Assembly (NCBI GenBank): GCA_012729635.1
Contig: JAAYCT010000009.1
Coordinates: 62,001 to 126,000 of the forward strand
Length of the DNA stretch: 64,000 nucleotides
Source: Clostridiaceae bacterium
Lineage (GTDB): Bacteria; Bacillota; Clostridia; Saccharofermentanales; Saccharofermentanaceae
Direction of reading: 5' to 3'
Shown here: positions 25,541 to 38,731 of the stretch, in pieces
How the letters are laid out: each line of letters begins with the position of its first letter
Position numbering within the stretch: the stretch's first letter is position 1
The notes under the pieces: model-generated
Database searches by the model: none
Seen by the model: only the letters and a program-made list of their open reading frames with translations
Told to the model about the DNA's origin: nothing
Made by a program: the position numbers and the translations under genes

Positions 25541-28027
25541 TCAGCGGTATGTTACTTGATACTTGATTTTGAAACTCGCTACGTCCTCTCCGGCGGTGCT
25601 TGCTGAAATATCCGCAAGGATGGACTCGCCCTTTTTGATTTTATCCATTGAAATGGGTGTTCCGATAAATACGTTTTTCGCTCCCTCTTTTTTTACGAAA
25701 ACAAAGCAGCTACTCTCAACTTTTTCGATGGTTGAAGATGTTGTATAGGAGATCGTTATCTTTTCAATCGAATCATACAGGGAGGATTCTTGGGTTCCCG
25801 TATTTCTGAACTTCAAATCAAAATATGCGACAGGACCGGTCCTTGAACCGTTCAGAATTTCATAATCGAAACGCGTCGCAACTCCAGGGGTAGGCGACGG
25901 AACCGGGGTAGGACTGGGTGAGGGAGTAGGGGTCGGACTGGGCGTCGGTGATGGGGTAGGTGTAGCAGTCGGGGCAACGGTCGGGGTCGGAATCACGGAA
26001 GACGAAGTGTCCGTATCCGTCGGTTCACTGATTGTTTCCGAGGATGCATCGGTTATGGGCGGCTCAAAAGATGATACGGCGGATTGATTTCCGGTGTTGC
26101 CGAAAAGATCGGAAAACACAACACCTAAATGAAACTGATTCCAGAGCCAGTAAAATAGGATGGATAAAACGATTAAAACAAGGATAATAATTAAAGGCAG
26201 ATACTCCGCCGCTTTTTTTCGGGACATGCGATATTGCTGTTTTTGCGGAGAAGTCGTACCCATTTGTTGAGCGGCTGTATACTTTGACCCCGGACGATCC
26301 AGATTGGTCAGCGGCTGAACCCCTTTAACCGGAGCAATTTTTGGGGGCTTTTCGTTCTTGCTGTCCGAATACTGACGGCCGGGACGCTCCTTGATTTCGA
26401 CGCGCTGACGGGGAGGCGGAGTGGATTCGGATTTGGGTTTTTCCGGGGATGCATTTTTTGAAAACACATTAATGCCGTCATCTCTTAATACGGAAGCAAC
26501 AGAATCATCTCTGGTTTTTAGTCCTTCCGATCGTTCGGGTGCGGCGGCTTTTCCGGATTCGGGCACCCTTGATTCACGAAGCGTATCTATAACGGGTGCT
26601 TCGTCAGATGGGTTATCCGAATCATCGAAATCATCAAAGAATTTTTTCCCGGAATTACCTCTCGAAAGCGAGGGTCTTTCTTCGGGTATTTCTGTCGGAT
26701 TGGATTCCGGTTCCGGATCAATCTTGAAAATCGGCTCCGGGTTCGGCTCGGCTTCAAGAATCGGTTCCGGATCCGCAACGGGCTCATGTTCGGATAATGG
26801 AGCATTTTCTTCTTCGGGAACCGATTCCGTCTCGACATCCGTTATCGGCTCCGATACGAGATCCATATCGGAATCGGGTTCGAAGGAAGGAATGTTTTCT
26901 GTTTCGGGCACCGATTCCGGTTCGACATCCGTTATCGGCTCCGATACGAGATCCATATCGGAATCGGGTTCGAAGGAAGGAATGTTTTCTGTTTCGGGCA
27001 CCGATTCCGGTTCGACATCCGTTATCGGCTCCGACACGAGATCCATAACGGGATCGGGTTCGAAGGAAGGAACGTTTTCTGTTTCGGGCACCGATTCCGG
27101 TTCGACATCCGTTATCGGCTCCGACACGAGATCCATAACGGGATCGGTCTCCGGGTTAACATCGGATCCAACCGTGGTTTCTTGACCGAGTTCGGATTCC
27201 TCGGAAGGAATGAATTCGATCCCCTGCTCCAAATCCGTAAAATTATCCCGAATTTCTCCAACGGTTATGTTGTCAACAGATTGACTGCTTGAATCTGGAG
27301 TTTTTGATTCATCTTTTTCATGCGAAACATCATCAAAAACCTCCGGAATATCATAAGAACCACCGGATTGTGGTTGTATGGGCTTAAACAAAGGGACATT
27401 CAGGTCTTCAAGCTCAATATCAAAAGGATCGTCCGAAATCTGCGCAAATTCATCGACTGAAATGGGGTCGTTATCCGAACGGGAAGAAGTGTTTATTTCG
27501 TCCGGTACGGAAGAATCAACAAATTCCCGGGTAAGCTCCGCTTCCCCATGATTCTCTTGGTTATCAAAGTCGTCATCGGGTAAGGTATCGTCTTGATTAT
27601 GTTTCGTATCATTTGAAATATCGTCGGAAGATGATGTTCGGGTCGCCCGATCCCTTAATGCTTCGGATACTGTTTTAGCGGAATCGCTTGCTTTGAAGGA
27701 GAGAAAAATCGGGAACGATGCGTCAGCGATATCATGAAGCTCATCCTCGTCCTTCGTATACATTACCGGCGAGTATTCCGGATCAATCGAATCGGGAGAA
27801 GCATCCTCATTTGCGGGCGCAACGTTTTCCGAATCATTCTCGGATTCGTCCTTTGAAAAGAGAACGGTCTCTTTTTCATCGTCACTGGAAGCCATGGACT
27901 TATAATAAGTTCCGAAAACGGAAGACGAGTCATCCTGCGGATCGTTTTCCGTGTCTTCCGGCTGATAATGGATTAATCTTTCGGGAATTCGTGACTCATC
28001 TTCACCGGGCTGTTTCCCTCTTAACAT
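25541..28027 (-). CDS. Large repeat-containing single-pass membrane protein
   Basis: Function not recognised. Start ATG 28027 with GGAGGTG at the proper distance (the in-frame GTG at 28036 overlaps the Shine-Dalgarno). Of 828 residues, about 600 N-terminal ones are Asp/Glu/Ser/Pro-rich and disordered, containing four 30-residue repeats (E-P-I-T-D-V-E-P-E-S-V-P type). Then come a basic segment, one transmembrane helix (LPLIIILVLIVLSILFYWLW), a Thr/Pro/Ser spacer of TPTPSP type and a C-terminal beta-rich domain of about 115 residues (FDYEILNGSRTGPVAYFDL). The topology implies an acidic cytoplasmic arm and a surface domain on a Pro-rich stalk. Gene expression probably starts in the gap upstream of tRNA-Leu. 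Confidence 0.75.
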   Translation of the reverse strand: MLRGKQPGEDESRIPERLIHYQPEDTENDPQDDSSSVFGTYYKSMASSDDEKETVLFSKDESENDSENVAPANEDASPDSIDPEYSPVMYTKDEDELHDIADASFPIFLSFKASDSAKTVSEALRDRATRTSSSDDISNDTKHNQDDTLPDDDFDNQENHGEAELTREFVDSSVPDEINTSSRSDNDPISVDEFAQISDDPFDIELEDLNVPLFKPIQPQSGGSYDIPEVFDDVSHEKDESKTPDSSSQSVDNITVGEIRDNFTDLEQGIEFIPSEESELGQETTVGSDVNPETDPVMDLVSEPITDVEPESVPETENVPSFEPDPVMDLVSEPITDVEPESVPETENIPSFEPDSDMDLVSEPITDVEPESVPETENIPSFEPDSDMDLVSEPITDVETESVPEEENAPLSEHEPVADPEPILEAEPNPEPIFKIDPEPESNPTEIPEERPSLSRGNSGKKFFDDFDDSDNPSDEAPVIDTLRESRVPESGKAAAPERSEGLKTRDDSVASVLRDDGINVFSKNASPEKPKSESTPPPRQRVEIKERPGRQYSDSKNEKPPKIAPVKGVQPLTNLDRPGSKYTAAQQMGTTSPQKQQYRMSRKKAAEYLPLIIILVLIVLSILFYWLWNQFHLGVVFSDLFGNTGNQSAVSSFEPPITDASSETISEPTDTDTSSSVIPTPTVAPTATPTPSPTPSPTPTPSPSPTPVPSPTPGVATRFDYEILNGSRTGPVAYFDLKFRNTGTQESSLYDSIEKITISYTTSSTIEKVESSCFVFVKKEGAKNVFIGTPISMDKIKKGESILADISASTAGEDVASFKIKYQVTYR
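26821..27146 (-). repeat. 90-bp tandem repeat inside the stalk-protein gene
   Basis: Units begin at 26821, 26911, 27001 and 27091; the fourth is partial. Units are exactly 90 bases (30 codons) and differ at only a few positions, so the reading frame is always kept. Degraded copies are visible around 26700-26820. Confidence 0.9.
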
Positions 28028-28153
28028 GATCAACACCTCCGAGACATTACCGAATTATAGAAATACAATATCACAAAACGACGTTTCTACCAACGATAAC
28101 GCAAATTGAATGATTATCTTTCTGCACGGATAATGATAAAGTCAATTTATGGT

Positions 28154-28734: not shown

Positions 28735-29364
28735 ATGAAAAAGCTGTTGAAGATTCTTATTGCTTTGTTGATTGCGCTGTCCATGGCGTTTTCTGTTTGT
28801 GCTTGCGATTTTGATTTCCTGGGTGGTCGCGATAATGAACGGGATGAAGATGACGAAGACGAAGATGATGAGGACGACGAAGACGACGAGGATGACGAAG
28901 ACGACGAGGACGAGGACGACGACGACGATGAGGACGACGAAGACGACGAGGATGATGAAGACGACGAAGATGACGAAGACGATGAGGATGATGAAGACGA
29001 CGAAGATGATGAGGATGATGAAGATGATGAAGATGATACGGGAATTACTCTTTCCGGTGCAAAAGATTTGGGCTGGCCGGAGCAATTAGTCGGTATCGTT
29101 CCTGATCCCAAGGAAATCGTTACTTGGATATCTTCTGGTGATTTCGGTACTTCTCTTTCCATCGAGGGAATGACCGAGGATGAAGCCTACGAGTATGCCG
29201 ATGTTTTGAAGGCCGCCGGATTTTCTAAGGATGCGTATACCGGTACTACGGGAGATAGCTTCACATTTGGAGGCTCTGACGAGAGCTCGGCCTATGTTTC
29301 TCTTTCCTGGTATGACGACGGAACGGCTTATATCGCCTATTATGTACCTTACGATCAGGAATAA
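28735..29364 (+). CDS. Lipoprotein with a 65-residue Asp/Glu tract
   Basis: Signal peptide of residues 1-23 (MKKLLKILIALL...) with lipobox VCAC and lipidated Cys24. After about 12 residues comes a run of Asp and Glu only, residues 37-101 (period-three DED/EDD pattern). The C-terminal 105 residues form a compact unassigned domain with D-x-F-x-x-S-L-S-I, AGFSKDAYTG and YVSLSWYDDGTAYIAYY, a pattern of small beta-alpha domains seen in Firmicutes lipoproteins. Function unknown; the tract probably acts as an extended polyanionic spacer or divalent-cation binder on the outer membrane surface (inference). AGGAGGG precedes the ATG. A perfect 12-bp terminator follows. Confidence 0.85.
   Translation: MKKLLKILIALLIALSMAFSVCACDFDFLGGRDNERDEDDEDEDDEDDEDDEDDEDDEDEDDDDDEDDEDDEDDEDDEDDEDDEDDEDDEDDEDDEDDEDDTGITLSGAKDLGWPEQLVGIVPDPKEIVTWISSGDFGTSLSIEGMTEDEAYEYADVLKAAGFSKDAYTGTTGDSFTFGGSDESSAYVSLSWYDDGTAYIAYYVPYDQE
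28843..29037 (+). repeat. Codon-level microsatellite (GAN)65
   Basis: 65 consecutive GAN codons encoding only Asp and Glu. Because all units are whole codons, length changes by slippage would keep the frame. It also makes spurious Met/Thr/Lys and poly-Ser frames in the other phases and strand. Confidence 0.95.
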
Positions 29365-30385: not shown

Positions 30386-32917
30386 ATGAAGAGGATTTCG
30401 TTTTTGAACGGTCGGAAAGAAAATATATACAAAAGGTTATCGGTTATTGTAGAGTCGATCAAAAAAGCAGATTCGTTTTTAGAAAAAAACAAAATCTACG
30501 CAATCCTTTGTATTGCAATTATTTGCGTTGTTTCGGTATTACTCTGGAACAGTTTTTATCAAACGAAAACATTTTCTAATTATGCGAACAGTGTGTCCTC
30601 GAGTATTCATATGGTTGAGGGGCAGAGTGTGCGTTTTTCTTTTGACGCGCAGAGGAGCCGTCTGTCATCAATAATCCTTGAAAAGGATGCGTCAAAATCC
30701 AGATTAAATGAAACGGATACTATTGATTTTACCATATATGATTCAGCAGGAAATCAAGTCGCTTGGAAAGAAGTTTTTTTGTATCATCCGCACAGAAATT
30801 ATATATCCGTGATGCTTACCGGAATGGCGTTGACCCGCGGAGAGCGGTACACTGCTGAAATGACTGTTTCCAATCTGACGGCGACATCGGTTTTATATAT
30901 GAAAATGCATTCGGTAAGTGTGTTTGAAACGGAACTGAACGAATCGGTTACTTTTGATACTCCCTTAGGGTTCAGATATGTACCCAATGTTTCTTATAAT
31001 TACAGTGTTCTGTCTATGTTGAGCATGGCGGTTCATGTTTCATTTTTTGTACTGTCTGCCGCCGTCCTTTTCTTCGATCGTATTCGGAAAACAGTCCTGT
31101 TTTGTGACGCGTATCGATCCACCATCATAATTCTTTTTCTTTATGTTTTCACGGAAATGTTGAATGTTGCCCGAGATGACGCTCTTCAGTTCCTGTTTCC
31201 GTTCGGGAACAAGACGATTATCCTCATAGCATCCGCCATCGTGATCATTACAATAATTTATCTGGTTTTGTACTTTGTCAGTGCACGAGGGTCTCTGGCT
31301 ATGTTTATAACGGCTTCCCTGGTCATCACACTCGGGTATATCAATCACTCGAAAATTGTTATGCGCGGGGATCCGTTTATGCCTTGGGATATTTATGCAG
31401 CCGGTGTTGCTGCGAAATGCTCATCGCAATATGATTTTCGAATCACCGTTCAATTTGTTGCTTCTTTCTTCATGGTTGCGGCGATCATTCTGATGATCCG
31501 TCTTTCGCACCGATCCAGAATAAAATCGGTGAAAATTCGAATGATCGGACTTATTGCCACCTTGGTGGCAGGGACGGCTTTTTCGTGTGGGTTTCTTTTT
31601 CAATCGGATCTTCACAAGAAACTGGATATATCTTATTCACTTTATCCACCGCTGGAAAGCTATAACGAGAACGGAACCATTTTGTCATTTTTCCTTCATT
31701 TAAACAACATAAAACCCAAGGGTGTCATCGATAATACGCCGGAGCAGGCGGCGGATATCATCCGTAAGTATGATCAAATCAAAGATGATCTCGGTCTGGA
31801 CCGACAAATCTTTACTCAAAAGGAAAAACCGAATGTAATCTGCGTAATGAGCGAGTCATTTGCGGATCTCAGACTGATTCGTGATTTCCGGACTTCCGAG
31901 CCGGTCTTGCCTTTTTATGACTCGATTTTAGATGATACATTACACGGGGAGCTACAGGTGTCCATTTTTGCCGGAGGAACATGCAATACCGAATTTGAGT
32001 TTCTTACCGGATATTCCGTTGCCGGCCTTTTACCCGGATCTTCCGTGTATACCTTTTATATTAAGGAGCCGATGCGGGCGATGCCGACACTATTTAGGGA
32101 AAATGGATACAGAACCCTAGCAATACATCCCTTTGATCCTCAGTGGTGGGATCGTGACCGAGCATATCCAATGCTCGGGTTTGACGAATATATCAGTCAA
32201 GGGGATTTTGAAGAACCCAAAATCGTTCGGAGATTTATCAGCGATGAATCCGCTTTTTATCGCATCATTGAGGAGTACGAGAAGACACCGATCGACACTC
32301 CGTTTTTTACGTTTTGCATTACCATGCAAAACCATGCGGATTACTCTGTTCGATGGGAAAACCAAAAATATGACATAAAAATCGAAAGCTTTTCGGGAAG
32401 CAGTTTTCCGTATGCTGAGAATTATCTTTCCCTGCTCAGGGAATCCGACGACGCTCTTCGAATTTTGATCGAGTACTTTCAATCGGTCGACGAACCGACA
32501 CTCATCGTATTTTTCGGAGATCATTTGGCAACCTTGGATCACGGTTTTTACGACATGTTATTGGATACCAACATTAATCAAATCTCAGCGGAAGAGTCTC
32601 TTCCCTTATATTCTACTCCGTACCTTATATGGTCCAATTATGATTTGCCGACGGGATATATGGGATTGACCAGTCCGAATTTTTTAGGGCAGGCAATCCT
32701 TGATTATGCGGGCATCCGTTCGCCCGCACAACGTTCATGCCTTCGCGTTTTGGGGGAGCATGTATCAGCGATTAGTGCGCTTGCTGTTTTTGATAAAAAT
32801 GGGTATCCATGGCTTAACCGAGAAAATCTGCCGGAGGAAGTTATCGAGATAATCATGGATTATGAGCGTATTCAATACGGAGATATCTTTTTCCCCGAGG
32901 CGGAAGGTATAGAATGA
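30386..32917 (+). CDS. LTA synthase family sulfatase-fold membrane protein
   Basis: Probably transfers a phosphoglycerol-type group onto an extracellular polymer or glycolipid. Of 843 residues: helix near 40-56; a beta-rich extracytoplasmic domain (about 60-210) not present in standard LtaS; further helices about 215-410; then the alkaline-phosphatase superfamily domain from about 480. Active-site features: MSESFAD (metal-binding Glu), catalytic Thr532 in AGGTCNTEFEFLTG, and FFGDHLATLDHG (Asp, His). No clear Shine-Dalgarno precedes ATG 30386, so the start could lie slightly downstream. Length and the inserted N-terminal domain set it apart from classical LtaS of about 650 residues. Confidence 0.85.
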   Translation: MKRISFLNGRKENIYKRLSVIVESIKKADSFLEKNKIYAILCIAIICVVSVLLWNSFYQTKTFSNYANSVSSSIHMVEGQSVRFSFDAQRSRLSSIILEKDASKSRLNETDTIDFTIYDSAGNQVAWKEVFLYHPHRNYISVMLTGMALTRGERYTAEMTVSNLTATSVLYMKMHSVSVFETELNESVTFDTPLGFRYVPNVSYNYSVLSMLSMAVHVSFFVLSAAVLFFDRIRKTVLFCDAYRSTIIILFLYVFTEMLNVARDDALQFLFPFGNKTIILIASAIVIITIIYLVLYFVSARGSLAMFITASLVITLGYINHSKIVMRGDPFMPWDIYAAGVAAKCSSQYDFRITVQFVASFFMVAAIILMIRLSHRSRIKSVKIRMIGLIATLVAGTAFSCGFLFQSDLHKKLDISYSLYPPLESYNENGTILSFFLHLNNIKPKGVIDNTPEQAADIIRKYDQIKDDLGLDRQIFTQKEKPNVICVMSESFADLRLIRDFRTSEPVLPFYDSILDDTLHGELQVSIFAGGTCNTEFEFLTGYSVAGLLPGSSVYTFYIKEPMRAMPTLFRENGYRTLAIHPFDPQWWDRDRAYPMLGFDEYISQGDFEEPKIVRRFISDESAFYRIIEEYEKTPIDTPFFTFCITMQNHADYSVRWENQKYDIKIESFSGSSFPYAENYLSLLRESDDALRILIEYFQSVDEPTLIVFFGDHLATLDHGFYDMLLDTNINQISAEESLPLYSTPYLIWSNYDLPTGYMGLTSPNFLGQAILDYAGIRSPAQRSCLRVLGEHVSAISALAVFDKNGYPWLNRENLPEEVIEIIMDYERIQYGDIFFPEAEGIE

Positions 32918-32952: not shown

Positions 32953-32969
32953 CGAAAATAGAGTATAAT
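32941..32969 (+). promoter_or_regulatory. Weak candidate promoter of the sensor/MFS/sigma-like block
   Basis: TTTATT and a perfect TATAAT at 32964-32969 are 17 bases apart, 29 bases before the next start codon. The -35 box is poor, which could mean an activator. Confidence 0.4.
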
Positions 32970-32997: not shown

Positions 32998-33684
32998 ATG
33001 TCACGAGACGAGAATCATTCGGTTCCGGAAGATCATACGCTGAGCTCGGCGGTTCGCGCCCTGATACTCGGCTTTTTTGCGATCGTTTTGGCGGTGGTAT
33101 CGGTTTCGTTTGCCATTCACCACATGCGGGAAGGATTTGAATCCGAATACAGGAAGCAATTCAATCTCCAACTCAAGGCTCTTGCGACCAATGCAATGCT
33201 TGTGATTGACGGGGATGAAATAGAGGCGGATCCGGTTGCCGCCGGTATGAAGTATCCCGCGATCATTAATCTGATGCTTCCGAGCCCTTCCGAAAATTCC
33301 TTTTCACAAATTGATTATGGTATTTTTGCCTGTTACGGACAAGGAACATTGGCAATTCTCCACATCAGCGATGACCAGAATCTGGTCTATATCGAAACGG
33401 CAATCAACAAATGGAACAACAGCAATCCCGAGCCGTATGAGATTGAAACCAAAGAAAAAAATAGCCTCCTAATCCCGATTTTGAACAGTCAGGGAGTGAT
33501 CGTCGGTCTGTTTGAAATAACGGGAAGCCACTCGTCACTACGACAATACGGGGACGTTTTGGAAGGGAAGTTGCTATTGGCTGTTATTGTATCTGCGTTA
33601 TTGGGCTTGCTTTTGTTTTCCGTTCAGTATTTCGTTCCGAAAGTACTGACACTTCTCCGGAAAAGAGAGGTGAACGAGGAATGA
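32998..33684 (+). CDS. Two-helix membrane protein with an extracytoplasmic sensor-like domain
   Basis: Not a recognised family. Of 228 residues: helix about 22-42, a loop domain of about 150 residues outside the membrane, helix about 192-214, short basic tail. The loop has CACHE/PAS-like features: a strand pair around GVIVGLFEI close to the second helix, and the motif KYPAIINLMLP. It shows weak similarity to the N-terminal domain of the next gene product (KPYIVNIYLS; SSGIIEVMMP), so the two may be related by duplication. It overlaps the next gene by 4 bases (ATGA). No enzyme or signalling output domain is present in this protein itself. Confidence 0.6.
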   Translation: MSRDENHSVPEDHTLSSAVRALILGFFAIVLAVVSVSFAIHHMREGFESEYRKQFNLQLKALATNAMLVIDGDEIEADPVAAGMKYPAIINLMLPSPSENSFSQIDYGIFACYGQGTLAILHISDDQNLVYIETAINKWNNSNPEPYEIETKEKNSLLIPILNSQGVIVGLFEITGSHSSLRQYGDVLEGKLLLAVIVSALLGLLLFSVQYFVPKVLTLLRKREVNEE

Positions 33685-35774
33685 GTATACTTCCGATTCT
33701 CGGGCTCTCTACTCCGCCTCAAGGGAAAAAATCATTAGCGACCCAGTTATCCTACACCTTCGTTGTCACATTGATTATTCTTTTTGTCGTTTCGTCAATC
33801 ATTACCACGGCGTATGTTGCCGTTCTTGAAAAGGAGCGAGCGGAATCGATGCAGGCCGTTGCATTATCCTGCGGACTTAATCTTTCGGGAACAACCATCG
33901 GTGAAGGAATGAACTATCCGCTCCCGTCGTATGAGTACGCGAATGACAAACCATATATCGTAAATATATATTTAAGTGCCGGTAATACTTTCGTTCGCGT
34001 CTATTCCTCAGAATTCGAGAATAAATCGGACGGGGAGGACCAGAGCCTTTTTATTCTCGATAATGTCGGATCCGAATACAAAAAAGCGTTTGATCAGATG
34101 ACCGTCGAGTTGTCCTCCAGATCGGAGTCCGATATTTCATATCAAACAGCCGTTGCTCCGATCGTTGGTTCAGCGGGTGCCTCATCGGGAATCATTGAGG
34201 TGATGATGCCTGAAAAGGATTTTCACGGAACGGTTAACGGGTTCTCGTTATCATGGGTCTTTACGATCTTTTCCATTTCATTGTCAATAACGATTGTGTA
34301 TTACCAAATGCATAAAATGCTCAGAACCGTGTTTTCGAAACCCGATATGGATTTACCGAAGGTGATTCGATACGGGCTTTCCGCTTGTGAATCGATTGCA
34401 TTCTTTTCCGCGATGGCACTTGTTATTCCTCCGCTGATTATTCCTCGTTTTCTGATCGGTTCCGGTTTTTTTGCGGAATATCCCGAGTTTGTGGTGCAAA
34501 TCATGATTGCATCGTCCCTTGTCCTGTTTTCCGTAGGGTTTTTCGGGTTTCGTTCCATACGCGTTCGTTTGTTTAATCGACTTACGGCCCGAGTGACATT
34601 GGTTCTTTCTGTGGTTGTATCCTTTGTCCTTCTATTGATCAACGGAATTTTTTCCAACCCGGTGGTGTTTGTCCTCCTGCAGATGCCGATTGCTTTCGGG
34701 CTTGGCATGATGTTTTATTTTCAAAGAGAGTACCGGATGTACGCCGGAAGATTGGGACATAAAGGATTCGATATCAAAACGATTCATAGTAAACAGTTTA
34801 CAAACCTGCTTCTCGGCAGTGCTGTCGGAGCGGTGATGGCGGGAATGATTTACGATCGATTCGGATTATTGGCGGTGCTACTGATCTGCGGTGCCGCACT
34901 TTTTATCGTAGCGATTATTACGTTGCTTTTCGTTCAACACTGCCCGTCGTCCAACGAACCCGCGATTCATTTTTCGACGTTCCTTTACGCCCTCTCGAAT
35001 CGAAAATCCGGTGCTTTTCTTTGGAGCACGGTTGTTTCTGCCGGTATGATGCTTTCCTTTTTTATCGGCTTTTTACCGAACTATCTGGGCTCGGTCGGAA
35101 TATCTCTTGCTACTGTATCGTTCTACTATATGCTTTTTGCTCTTTTTTGCTGTGTTATCATTCGAATTATTCTTACACTCGCGAACATTCGACTGCGCGT
35201 CGTTTCCACGGTGTGGGTTTCATCCTTACTTCAGCTTATCGGGTACTTGCTTTTCGCTTTACTCCCGACGGCAAAGGTCCTCGTTATCGCCGTCGCTCTG
35301 TTTGGCATGGCAATGGGTCTCCATGAATTCAAATTTCTGGACTATTACACAACCCTGATCCGTGAAGAGAAGCGCTCCATTGCGGGGATTATATTTGAGC
35401 GATCCTTTGCGAACGGCGTCGCTGTGGCTGTGATTCCGCTCAGTATATCCTTGATGTTTTCTTCGGCTCGCATCCCGCTTCTGATATATTGCCTGATTTG
35501 TGCAGCGGTGGTTCTCGCATATCCCGTAATGAATCTGATTCATGTTCCCTCGGCAGATGTAGATCGTCCGATGATCGGAGATCCGTTTGTTGAAGCAACG
35601 CCCGATTGGGAAAGTGAGAATGAATATGACGAGACGGAGGAATATTACGGTCCGTTTCTGCACGATCGAAACCATGAATCTCCATGGGAGGATGAAAACG
35701 ATGTGCTGCCGTATTATCCGGATGAAAGCGATTCTTTTGATTCGGATCAATACGAAGGAGGAAAATGGGTATGA
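33681..35774 (+). CDS. Sensor-domain / MFS-like transporter fusion
   Basis: A 697-residue protein. Residues about 24-50 are a membrane helix, followed by an extracytoplasmic domain of about 135 residues like that of the preceding protein, then a helix at about 190-210 and 12 further hydrophobic helices with MFS character: the inter-helix LGSAVGAVMAGMIYDRFG motif resembles the G-x-x-x-D-R/K-x-G signature. The C-terminal 75 residues are acidic, Tyr/Pro/Asp rich and presumably cytoplasmic. Fusion of a periplasmic-type sensor to an MFS-type core is unusual. It is coupled by 4-base overlaps to genes on both sides. The transported or sensed molecule is unknown. Confidence 0.65.
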   Translation: MSILPILGLSTPPQGKKSLATQLSYTFVVTLIILFVVSSIITTAYVAVLEKERAESMQAVALSCGLNLSGTTIGEGMNYPLPSYEYANDKPYIVNIYLSAGNTFVRVYSSEFENKSDGEDQSLFILDNVGSEYKKAFDQMTVELSSRSESDISYQTAVAPIVGSAGASSGIIEVMMPEKDFHGTVNGFSLSWVFTIFSISLSITIVYYQMHKMLRTVFSKPDMDLPKVIRYGLSACESIAFFSAMALVIPPLIIPRFLIGSGFFAEYPEFVVQIMIASSLVLFSVGFFGFRSIRVRLFNRLTARVTLVLSVVVSFVLLLINGIFSNPVVFVLLQMPIAFGLGMMFYFQREYRMYAGRLGHKGFDIKTIHSKQFTNLLLGSAVGAVMAGMIYDRFGLLAVLLICGAALFIVAIITLLFVQHCPSSNEPAIHFSTFLYALSNRKSGAFLWSTVVSAGMMLSFFIGFLPNYLGSVGISLATVSFYYMLFALFCCVIIRIILTLANIRLRVVSTVWVSSLLQLIGYLLFALLPTAKVLVIAVALFGMAMGLHEFKFLDYYTTLIREEKRSIAGIIFERSFANGVAVAVIPLSISLMFSSARIPLLIYCLICAAVVLAYPVMNLIHVPSADVDRPMIGDPFVEATPDWESENEYDETEEYYGPFLHDRNHESPWEDENDVLPYYPDESDSFDSDQYEGGKWV

Positions 35775-36523
35775 ATTCATGGAATGAACGCTTAACGCGC
35801 GAAAACATCACCGATTTTTTTAATGAATATGCTCCTCCCGCTTACAAGTCTGTTTATCGGATGCTTGGGGACACTGCCCGAACCGAGAATGTATTGCTTT
35901 ATTCTTTTGTCGAAGTGTATCGTCAACGTAATTCCGGTGATTCGGAGGATCCGGTTACACTTTTCGGACAAATTTTGCAAAAACGAGCGGCACTGATCGC
36001 CGTAAAGTATCCTTTGCCGGAAAACTATCGATTTTCAGTCCGAAGCTTGGATGAATTCACGCAAAACACTTTATTGTCTGACATCATTCATAAAATTGAC
36101 TCCTTTTCATTTCGTGCGGTTGATGTCATTTCCGCATCATCTGCCCGAAAGCTGACCGGGGGCGCATCGCTACCGCGATTCGGAGCCGGTGTCGGTGAAT
36201 CGGGATTATCGATTCAACTGATTATTCAACTGCTGATCGTCGGCCTGATTATCGCGGGTGTAACTTATTTCGGTGCAATGAGCGGATTTGATGTTCGCGA
36301 CTCGATTCCGGATTACCGGATTACGTCCGAACAGAATACCGATGAGAAATTAGTTGCCGCGCTTCAATATTTACCTCTTCGCCTCAATGCAAACAACGTT
36401 TTCAAGGAAGTATTGCCTGCCATACCTTCACCGAATCAGATTGACGAGTCATCAGAAACATCCGAAAACACGACGGATGTCACGATTGATGGAGAAACCG
36501 AGATTTCTGCGACACGCGGATGA
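35771..36523 (+). CDS. Membrane protein with a degenerate sigma-factor region 2-like N-terminus
   Basis: Start: AAGGAGG at 35755-35761 is 9 bases before ATG 35771, which overlaps the upstream stop; the ATG at 35765 is too close. Residues about 1-80 resemble ECF sigma region 2 (FFNEYAPPAYKSVYRMLGDT, then NVLLYSFVEVYRQ), but region 4, which would recognise -35, is absent. A single membrane helix follows at about 148-170, then an acidic Ser/Thr/Glu-rich extracytoplasmic tail. It may be a membrane-bound remnant or an anti-sigma/adaptor-like protein; the similarity is by eye only. 250 residues. It is convergent with the histidine kinase gene. Confidence 0.55.
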   Translation: MNSWNERLTRENITDFFNEYAPPAYKSVYRMLGDTARTENVLLYSFVEVYRQRNSGDSEDPVTLFGQILQKRAALIAVKYPLPENYRFSVRSLDEFTQNTLLSDIIHKIDSFSFRAVDVISASSARKLTGGASLPRFGAGVGESGLSIQLIIQLLIVGLIIAGVTYFGAMSGFDVRDSIPDYRITSEQNTDEKLVAALQYLPLRLNANNVFKEVLPAIPSPNQIDESSETSENTTDVTIDGETEISATRG

Positions 36524-36551: not shown

Positions 36552-37997
36552 CTAAATGCGAGACAAAGGGATTTTCAACGTGAATTCGGCTCCTTTTTGA
36601 CCTTCCGAGCGATTACTTGCGAATATGCATCCTTTGTGATCTTCGGCGACGGCTTTTACCAAGGCAAGTCCGATACCGTGCTTGCCTTTTTCTCCGCGAA
36701 CAAAACGATTAAAAAGTATTGGTAAAAGGTCCTCAGGGATTCCGTCACCGTCGTCTGTAACCGTAATCGTCGCGAACATATCGTCGGTTTTCAGTTCGAT
36801 GTCAATTCGACTCTGTGCATGTCGTATTGCATTAGAAAGAAGATTTTCTATTGCACGAAATAAATCGCTTTCGTTACCAAGGACTGTAACCGCTCCTTCC
36901 GGAAAAGAAAAATTCAAATTCTTCTTGGCCAAAATTACCGATCCGCGAATATTTTCGATAACGGAATCCAGAGTTTCCCTTAAATCGATCAAGCTCTTTT
37001 TCCCGGAGTGTGATCCGGACGAGGATAAATCCAAGCGAGACAAGGTCAAGAGGTTTTCAACCATGTCGGAAAGACGTTTCGATTCCGATATAATAATGTC
37101 CGTTGCTTCGTCGGGATTCTCAAACACGCCGTATTTTATGCCTTCCGCATAACCTTGAATAGACATGAGCGGAGTTCTTAATTCGTGTGAAGCGTTTTGG
37201 AAAAACGTTTTTTGATCCGTGTCCGCCTTAGATAACCGATAGGCCATCAGGTTCATGTCCGATGCCAATGAATCCAGCTCAATATCGGTAAATTTACACT
37301 CCAGCGGCTTAAAGTCTCCGGCACCGATTCGGCTTGCGAATGTGGTTAATTTGTGCAAGGAACGAATAATGTTGTTGGAAACAAGCATGGATGTAATGAT
37401 GGATAAAAATAGAGCGGACAACAATATGATGTACAGAGTCTGATCCAAACTTTGTGCGAATCGTGTATAGGGAGAACTGTCCAAGTAGAAAAGAAGGTAT
37501 GAGTCGGGGGAACGATCGTCTTCTAAAAAAGTCATCCGGTTAAAAGGGACGAGCAATATATACAAAACGGATGATTTGATTTCCAGAACATGCTCGCTTC
37601 GGATGTTCAAGTCGACTTTTTGTTTTTCCAAAACGGATTTGATCGAATTCACACGAACCCGCTCGGGGAATGAATCGGTTGATTTCGGATAGTTCACATA
37701 CAGGTATTCGTCGAGCATGGCGATTTTTACATCAGAACTGCCCGAAACCGACTGGATCAACTCAATAACGGTGGCTTTCTTTTCTGCGGGCGTTTTAAAC
37801 AAGGCCAAAATGCTCATATTATTCGCAAGTTGAAGCGTATGAGCGGAGGTTGTAAGCAGTTTTTCCTTGGAATCCGATTGTATATAGCTTTGGATTACCA
37901 TGCGGAAAGCAATCGAAACCGTAGAAAACGTAATGAGAAACACTAAAAAAAACGCGGCGAAAATGTGTAGTCGTAAACTGATTTTTTTCCCAAACAT
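36552..37997 (-). CDS. Sensor histidine kinase
   Basis: Autophosphorylates and passes phosphate to the adjacent response regulator. Two membrane helices (about 10-32 and 188-207) enclose a periplasmic-type loop, then a HAMP domain (about 208-260), the dimerisation helix with His271 in NASHELRTP, and a HATPase domain with N box ENLLSNAIRHA, G1 DDGDGIPED and G2 GKHGIGLALVKAV. No Cys or His cluster gives away the signal. Start ATG 37997 with AGAGGTG upstream, the GTG at 38003 overlapping the Shine-Dalgarno. It follows its regulator by 38 bases. Confidence 0.94.
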   Translation of the reverse strand: MFGKKISLRLHIFAAFFLVFLITFSTVSIAFRMVIQSYIQSDSKEKLLTTSAHTLQLANNMSILALFKTPAEKKATVIELIQSVSGSSDVKIAMLDEYLYVNYPKSTDSFPERVRVNSIKSVLEKQKVDLNIRSEHVLEIKSSVLYILLVPFNRMTFLEDDRSPDSYLLFYLDSSPYTRFAQSLDQTLYIILLSALFLSIITSMLVSNNIIRSLHKLTTFASRIGAGDFKPLECKFTDIELDSLASDMNLMAYRLSKADTDQKTFFQNASHELRTPLMSIQGYAEGIKYGVFENPDEATDIIISESKRLSDMVENLLTLSRLDLSSSGSHSGKKSLIDLRETLDSVIENIRGSVILAKKNLNFSFPEGAVTVLGNESDLFRAIENLLSNAIRHAQSRIDIELKTDDMFATITVTDDGDGIPEDLLPILFNRFVRGEKGKHGIGLALVKAVAEDHKGCIFASNRSEGQKGAEFTLKIPLSRI

Positions 37998-38035
37998 CGA
38001 CACCTCTTACGCTGATATTCGAAATGCGTTATTAA

Positions 38036-38731
38036 TCAGACTTTATTCTCCTTGGGACTTAATCGAAACCCGTATCCCCATACGGTTTTGATTTCCACAT
38101 TCGTTTTCGCGAGTTTTTTCCGAAGGCGTTTTACCGTATCATCGGCGACTCTTGTTTCTACCTCAGTTTCATAGCCCCATAGTCGATCCAGAAGTTCGGT
38201 GCGCGGAATTGCCCGGTCCTTATTCAGAATCAAATAGGATAGAAGAGCAAACTCGTTGGGTGTGAGCTGAAGATCTGTTCCTTCCGCGAAAGCGGTTTTG
38301 GATTTTGAGTCAATCCGGATATCCTCGTATGAGCTGACTCCGTACAAGGGTTTGTCCGACAAGTCCGTATCGATTCTTCGAAAAATGGCTTTGACCTTGC
38401 TGACTAATTTCATCGGGCTGAAGGGTTTGGTAAAATAATCGTCACTTCCGAGCGAAAGACCGGATATATAATCCGCATCGCTGTCCCTTGCCGTAAGCAT
38501 GATGATCGGAACCCCGCTGATTTTTCGAATATCCTTACAAATCAGGAAACCGTCTCGTCCCGGCATCATAATATCCAGTATGACCAGATCGGAAGGGACG
38601 ACAGAGAAATGCCTCAGAAGTGACTCTCCGTCTTCAAAAGAACGAACAACATAGCCTTCGCGCTCCAAAAAGGTTCGTACGAGATTTCGGATGTTGGATT
38701 CGTCATCCGCGATATAAATAGTCTTCGTCAT
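38036..38731 (-). CDS. OmpR/PhoB-family response regulator
   Basis: 231 residues. Receiver domain with acidic pocket DDE (9-11), phospho-acceptor Asp53, Thr80 and Lys102 (DYFTKPF), and a C-terminal winged helix from about 132 (LTPNEFALLSYL, TVKRLRKKL, TVWGYGFRL). Likely controls the flanking genes, perhaps itself and the family 1 glycosidase 82 bases upstream in the same direction; that is inference. First gene of the two-component pair on the minus strand. Confidence 0.95.
   Translation of the reverse strand: MTKTIYIADDESNIRNLVRTFLEREGYVVRSFEDGESLLRHFSVVPSDLVILDIMMPGRDGFLICKDIRKISGVPIIMLTARDSDADYISGLSLGSDDYFTKPFSPMKLVSKVKAIFRRIDTDLSDKPLYGVSSYEDIRIDSKSKTAFAEGTDLQLTPNEFALLSYLILNKDRAIPRTELLDRLWGYETEVETRVADDTVKRLRKKLAKTNVEIKTVWGYGFRLSPKENKV

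Follow-up and report, generated by a model that had tools for sequence, protein, structure and literature searches.

A CACHE-MFS-sigma-like gene cassette of the Saccharofermentanaceae: a candidate membrane signalling device

Introduction

What is achieved by an operon that brings together a sensory outer domain, a transporter fold and a membrane-tied sigma-like domain? The question is raised by three genes (here g1, g2 and g3) in a 64,000-nucleotide stretch of the genome of a Saccharofermentanaceae bacterium (contig JAAYCT010000009.1, positions 62,001 to 126,000; the whole stretch is called the window below). A sequence-only reading of the window had proposed that the set couples a transporter to transcription. 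The analysis described here suggests, with a probability of about one half, that g1, g2 and g3 encode a membrane signalling complex that senses the outside of the cell, with g3 as its output or adaptor subunit. Coupling of the cassette to transcription is plausible but unproven.

Organization and conservation of the cassette

The three genes lie head to tail on the + strand and their open reading frames have the coordinates first assigned to them. G1 (32998..33684, 228 aa) encodes a transmembrane (TM) helix, a CACHE-like outer domain (approximately residues 41-190) and a second TM helix. G2 (33681..35774, 697 aa) encodes a TM helix, an outer domain, another TM helix, a 12-TM core of the major facilitator superfamily (MFS) and an acidic cytoplasmic tail. 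G3 (35771..36523, 250 aa) encodes a sigma region 2-like (sigma2-like) domain, a two-helix segment, a TM helix and an acidic outer linker ending in the C-terminus SATRG. Overlaps of 4 bases between adjacent genes, as claimed by the sequence-only reading, were found at both junctions, the second of them given a g3 start at 35771. The g1/g2 overlap is the ATGA at 33681-33684, and an overlap of this size occurs in 31/34 loci in which g1 and g2 are separate. The g3 start at 35771 (MNSWNER) is backed by an alignment of 41 orthologs; an in-frame ATG at 35765, which would give a 10-base overlap, was rejected because the orthologs start at the 35771 methionine. Spacing between g2 and g3 varies among loci, from -26 to +11. 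Upstream of g1 is a TATAAT (32964..32969, + strand) that is likely to be the -10 element of the g1-g2-g3 operon. A perfect TATAAT is found 5' of g1 (or of the fused gene described below) in 33/35 loci inspected across the family, usually 34-49 bases before the start, with no clear -35 box alongside it in these 35 loci.

The presence of the cassette was assessed in 98 genomes, 58 from the Saccharofermentanaceae and 40 from sister families of the same order. Of the 58 Saccharofermentanaceae genomes, 54 have g1, 53 have g2 and 55 have g3, and the cassette is present in this order and as a single copy in 53/58; none of the three genes was found in the 40 sister-family genomes. A profile of full-length g2 had no matches at an E-value of 1e-12 outside the family (398 genomes of the phylum), and a profile of its sensor half had a single weak partial match (341 genomes of the class). 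Among the names attached to related loci are Saccharofermentans, Mageeibacillus and Clostridiales, and the samples come from rumen, gut and digesters. The order g1-g2-g3, whose conservation the sequence-only reading had left to be checked, is kept in all of the loci fetched (40/40). On comparative grounds a chance association of the three genes is excluded, because the whole set is conserved across dozens of species. An origin from a mobile element or phage was rejected, as g3 has no match on plasmids or in viral contigs.

A single open frame of 865-1035 aa takes the place of separate g1 and g2 genes in 15 further named loci. These fused loci are monophyletic with a support of 1.0, and because they form one clade the fusion most likely arose once. 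As the two proteins are joined into one in this clade, the fusion is strong evidence from gene structure that g1 and g2 act together, as one unit.

Outer domains of g1 and g2

A structure was predicted for a fused g1+g2 ortholog, L143 (888 aa; predicted local distance difference test score 87.3, predicted template modelling score 0.82). The model has two outer modules and a 12-helix core. In each module a long helix leaves the membrane, carries an alpha/beta domain (two strands, a helical stretch and three further strands) and is followed by a return helix, which is the CACHE layout. The description of g1 as a two-helix membrane protein with a CACHE-like outer domain therefore agrees with the layout of the modelled ortholog. 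The outer domains of g1 and g2 had also been described as similar; they share a fold in the model and have a weak link in sequence (hhalign P ~1e-4, 52 columns including TM residues).

Relationships beyond the family are faint. In the 341 genomes of the class, the g1 profile weakly matches the outer domains of HAMP-histidine kinases, SpoIIE phosphatases and one cyclase. Some of these relatives have weak matches over the outer region to Cache_WalK (0.001-0.003) and to sCache_3_3 (0.021). The latter domain is also matched by 2/25 g2 members (best E-value: 0.007). A sequence search of the PDB gave no CACHE match for the outer domains.

The g2 outer domain (33822..34229, + strand, approximately residues 48-183) has invariant Y92, N102 and R147 and a near-invariant R106. 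The invariant Arg and Asn residues suggest that it may have a pocket for an anion or carboxylate ligand. It is followed by a stalk and the second sensor TM helix (34230..34325, + strand, residues 184-215), which contain the motif TVNGxSLSW and form the best-conserved stretch of g2. Mean column identity here is 0.71, compared to 0.47-0.67 in the other non-tail segments, so that the stalk is conserved beyond every segment of the MFS core.

The MFS core of g2

The g2 core (34359..35510, + strand, approximately residues 227-610) matches Pfam MFS_1 with an E-value of 2.4e-9, and this domain is found in 25/25 members examined. In the fused-ortholog model the core matches the fold of VMAT2 with a Z of 31.7 over 384 residues (fold-match Z scores in this work are VIA). 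The claim that the 697-residue protein joins an outer domain to an MFS-like 12-helix core is thus confirmed by both the Pfam assignment and the fold. The canonical motif A (GxxxDRxGRR) is found in 0/25 g2 members, and within the core conservation is lowest in TM1-2 and TM11-12. This pattern of conservation favours a receptor or gated role, with transport still possible.

These same data bear on a serious rival, that of a regulated transporter. In this view a solute is moved by the MFS core under allosteric gating by the outer domains, and g3 has an accessory or assembly role, its sigma fold being an evolutionary leftover without regulatory output. A full 12-TM MFS fold close to that of working transporters, recognized as MFS_1 in every member, is what such a protein should have. 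The lack of motif A in all 25 members and the weak conservation of TM1-2 and TM11-12 do not fit it well, and neither does the constraint on the g3 sigma2 fold discussed below. Overall, the regulated transporter is considered somewhat unlikely.

The sigma-like domain of g3

The N-terminus of g3 had been noted to resemble sigma region 2, and sigma hidden Markov models, remote profile matches and the predicted fold all bear this out. The domain covers residues 1-92 (35771..36046, + strand). Sigma scores of single g3 proteins are weak (best E-value: 0.013), but 40/62 orthologs match the NCBIfam sigma model TIGR02983 at an E-value of 1 or lower, and the best E-value across all sigma models in the 62 orthologs is 2.4e-5. 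In the class scan, the off-family matches of the g3 profile on residues 9-63 are largely to proteins of the length and sequence of extracytoplasmic function (ECF) sigma factors. When compared with the PDB, the profile is most similar to SigK (E-value: 0.14, residues 12-56). Most of residues 11-110 score above 90 in the AlphaFold model of g3, and its sigma2 fold matches AlgU (Z 9.5), SigK (9.4), CnrH (9.4) and SigW (9.3) over 79-84 residues, with sigmaE also among the top matches (Z 9.1-9.5). In the structural ranking, sigma factors or complexes that contain them fill the first 24 rows, and unrelated folds begin at Z 4.2. A Z of 9 would not by itself be sufficient for a helical bundle; because sequence and fold agree, the N-terminus of g3 is assigned, from both profiles and model, as a real sigma region 2 fold.

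Unrelated outer domains, a missing MFS core and a third protein without any sigma score had been named beforehand as grounds for abandoning the sequence-only reading, and none of the three was found. The suggestion that the sigma-like part drives transcription, by contrast, is not supported, and no transcriptional target is visible. Residues E39, F65, L69 and D94 are invariant in g3, yet of the region 2.2 set that contacts core RNA polymerase in true ECFs (E-D..Q-E type) E39 alone remains: none of the 62 orthologs has an acidic residue at position 40 or Gln at position 43, and 38/62 have Lys at position 44. Past region 2.3, where true ECFs are basic, the g3 stretch mostly carries a net negative charge. 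Region 4 gave no matches in Pfam or NCBIfam scans of the 62 members. At its expected place is a conserved two-helix segment (36047..36157, + strand, residues 93-129, LDEYT...IDS), and in the model these two short helices run into the predicted, hydrophobic TM helix (36212..36286, + strand, residues 148-172). Because most core and promoter residues are lost, region 4 is missing and the protein is tied to the membrane, g3 is not an ordinary sigma factor. The four invariant residues also count against the regulated transporter, in which a constrained sigma2 fold needs another reason.

One way for such a domain to influence transcription is mimicry of the PhyR type (PhyR-NepR/EcfG): while the receptor is active, the membrane-tied sigma2-like domain of g3 would titrate an anti-sigma factor and so release a genuine alternative sigma factor. 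PhyR is a structural match of g3 (Z 5.3), and its sigma-like domain has likewise lost the residues for core RNA polymerase and promoter contacts (PMC8103513). At least three sigma70 region 2 proteins are present in every tested family genome that is at least 90% complete. PhyR, however, is soluble, carries a receiver domain and mimics both sigma2 and sigma4, whereas g3 is membrane-bound and has sigma2 only; both a receiver domain and a sigma4-like half are absent from the 62 g3 members. The operon lacks an anti-sigma gene, and a zinc-type anti-sigma factor (zf-HC2), found in 3/8 cassette genomes tested, is missing from the other 5/8, among them several complete ones. This form of coupling is improbable. 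The source genome (2.15 Mb) has four sigma70 region 2 proteins that pass the search, and its relatives in genus g4 have 6-21.

Alternatively, g3 could be an active tethered sigma2 protein that is freed by regulated proteolysis (as for IutY and the ECF48, ECF52 and ECF53 groups) or that pairs with a sigma4-only partner in the manner of SigO-RsoA. Membrane-tethered ECFs, which include IutY/ECF243 as well as ECF48, ECF52 and ECF53, share with g3 a sigma domain inside the cell, a TM helix and an extracytoplasmic tail (PMC8999054). RsoA of Bacillus subtilis, the partner of SigO, shares with it a stand-alone sigma2 domain (PMC8103513). The tethered ECFs carry both sigma2 and sigma4, whereas g3 has no sigma4, degenerate contacts and an invariant C-terminal peptide. 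RsoA starts transcription together with a sigma4 protein and is set apart by description from the membrane-bound, degenerate g3. There is no sigma4-only gene within the operon, although no search aimed at one elsewhere was made. The non-acidic position 40, the lack of Gln at position 43 and the net negative stretch past region 2.3 all make an active sigma2 very improbable.

The outer tail of g3

After its TM helix, g3 continues for 65-125 residues to the protein end. This outer linker (36287..36505, + strand, in the window) is acidic, with a mean net charge of approximately -10 in 62 orthologs, largely unconserved and modelled with low confidence. It ends in a pentapeptide (S-A-T-R-G, 36506..36520, + strand) with the family consensus SATxG-COOH. 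The A, T and final G are invariant in 62/62 orthologs, and S is present in 58/62. The endings are SATRG (31), SATSG (12), SATPG, SATQG and SATVG (5 each), TATKG (2), TATRG (1) and KATRG (1). Neither this ending nor the fusion of g1 and g2 in sister genomes was part of the sequence-only reading.

Two simple explanations for the conserved ending were rejected. Overlap at the DNA level with a gene or terminator downstream does not account for it, as synonymous codons and the downstream sequence vary freely, and it is not a general C-terminal tag, as no other plausible gene in the source genome ends in ATxG. Because the codons vary and the downstream DNA is unrelated, selection acts on the peptide and on its free C-terminal position. 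By analogy, SATxG at the end of a disordered linker looks like a docking peptide. DegS provides a known example of C-terminal residues being read outside the membrane (PMC8103513).

A different use for the same tail can be imagined, in which g3 is the precursor of a secreted peptide. A protease would free the C-terminal SATxG, which would then be read by the outer domains of g1 and g2. Phr-type pentapeptides are C-terminal signals released by proteases in this way, and an invariant pentapeptide past a disordered linker in 62/62 orthologs would suit such a role. The peptide barely varies among species, however, there is no conserved cleavage site, and a conserved cytoplasmic domain would be superfluous in a precursor of this kind. 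A secreted peptide is the most improbable of the explanations considered here.

Comparison with known systems

The use of secondary-transporter-like proteins in signalling has precedents. UhpC has been described as a receptor activating UhpB, and CbrA has an SLC5 core fused to a kinase (PMC8871633). The cassette resembles UhpC-UhpB and CbrA/CrbS in this respect, but what is joined to its MFS core is an outer CACHE-like domain, not a kinase, and the partner protein carries a sigma2-like domain. No kinase or receiver domain is part of the conserved unit, fused to it or conserved beside it. The TM-outer domain-TM module of g1 is related to that of CACHE sensor kinases (WalK-like) and SpoIIE phosphatases. 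Unlike these, g1 has no HAMP or catalytic domain, and therefore its output must pass via g2 or g3.

UhpC/CbrA, PhyR, the tethered ECFs and RsoA each share one feature with the cassette, and none has the whole set; for UhpC/CbrA, PhyR and the tethered ECFs, a defining feature was in each case looked for in the cassette and not found. In the open-licence literature, no paper was found on CACHE-MFS fusions, MFS-SpoIIE architectures or Saccharofermentanaceae sigma factors. The cassette looks like an undescribed membrane signalling device, although an earlier description outside this literature is possible.

Proposed model

The proposed model draws on the parts of the cassette, their order and linkage, their conservation, the folds, the degenerate sigma residues and the tail motif, as read from sequence and predicted structures, and is as follows. 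G1, g2 and g3 would assemble as one membrane complex for sensing outside the cell. A ligand, perhaps anionic, would bind the paired outer domains of g1 and g2. The stalk would relay the resulting change, and the MFS core would shift its conformation, behaving less like a plain pump than like a receptor or gate. Outside the membrane, the tail of g3 would work like a tethered ligand or latch by docking its free SATxG C-terminus on a partner, most simply the outer domain of g1 or g2. Inside the cell, the sigma2-like domain, presumably unfit for RNA polymerase or promoter DNA, could serve as a cytoplasmic protein-binding module whose availability to its target is governed by the receptor.

Several points weigh against this model. 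The tie between g3 and the other two proteins rests on gene order, as g3 is never fused to them. The genes around the cassette differ between genera, so no single pathway is indicated. The fused ortholog L143, from which the structure of the outer domains and core was taken, is ~30-35% identical to the window proteins. In addition, the lack of motif A is suggestive only as a sign of non-transport, and the core could still transport. A sensing complex with g3 as its output or adaptor is nevertheless given the probability of about one half stated above. The full version, in which a CACHE-MFS receptor is read out by a transcription-dead, membrane-tied sigma2, SATxG-COOH is the tethered ligand or latch, and an outside signal alters what the sigma2 domain holds inside, is more tentative and, taken as a whole, rather unlikely.

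Neighbouring genes in the window

A histidine kinase and response regulator are encoded at 36552-38731 (- strand), convergent with g3. They were rejected as part of the system because such a pair adjoins the cassette in only 5/41 loci. Upstream, 80 bases before g1, is a gene (30386-32917, + strand) whose product, a membrane protein of 843 aa, has an LtaS-like sulfatase domain. A gene of this type is directly upstream of g1 in only 8/41 loci, from several genera, so it was rejected as a cassette component and is kept as a lead only.

Two other genes encode unusually acidic proteins. The first (25541-28036, - strand) specifies a protein of 831 aa whose long cytoplasmic part is acidic and disordered. 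It also has one TM helix, a PT-rich stalk and, at the C-terminus, an outer domain of ~110 residues; it has no Pfam match. Elsewhere, in other genera, its relatives of the same layout lie divergently just upstream of the cassette (cluster c4 in 16/41 loci, cluster c14 in 9/41). The second (28735-29364, + strand) encodes an apparent lipoprotein in which a long acidic (EDD) repeat run comes straight after the signal peptide.

Conclusions

Across the family, the g1-g2-g3 cassette is a core operon of bacteria that are common in the rumen, the gut and digesters. With a C-terminal peptide as short and exact as that of g3, the proposed coupling can be tested directly. If the model is correct, these bacteria would have combined a secondary-transporter fold with a sensor domain on the outside, and would use a sigma fold for membrane-bound signalling instead of promoter recognition.

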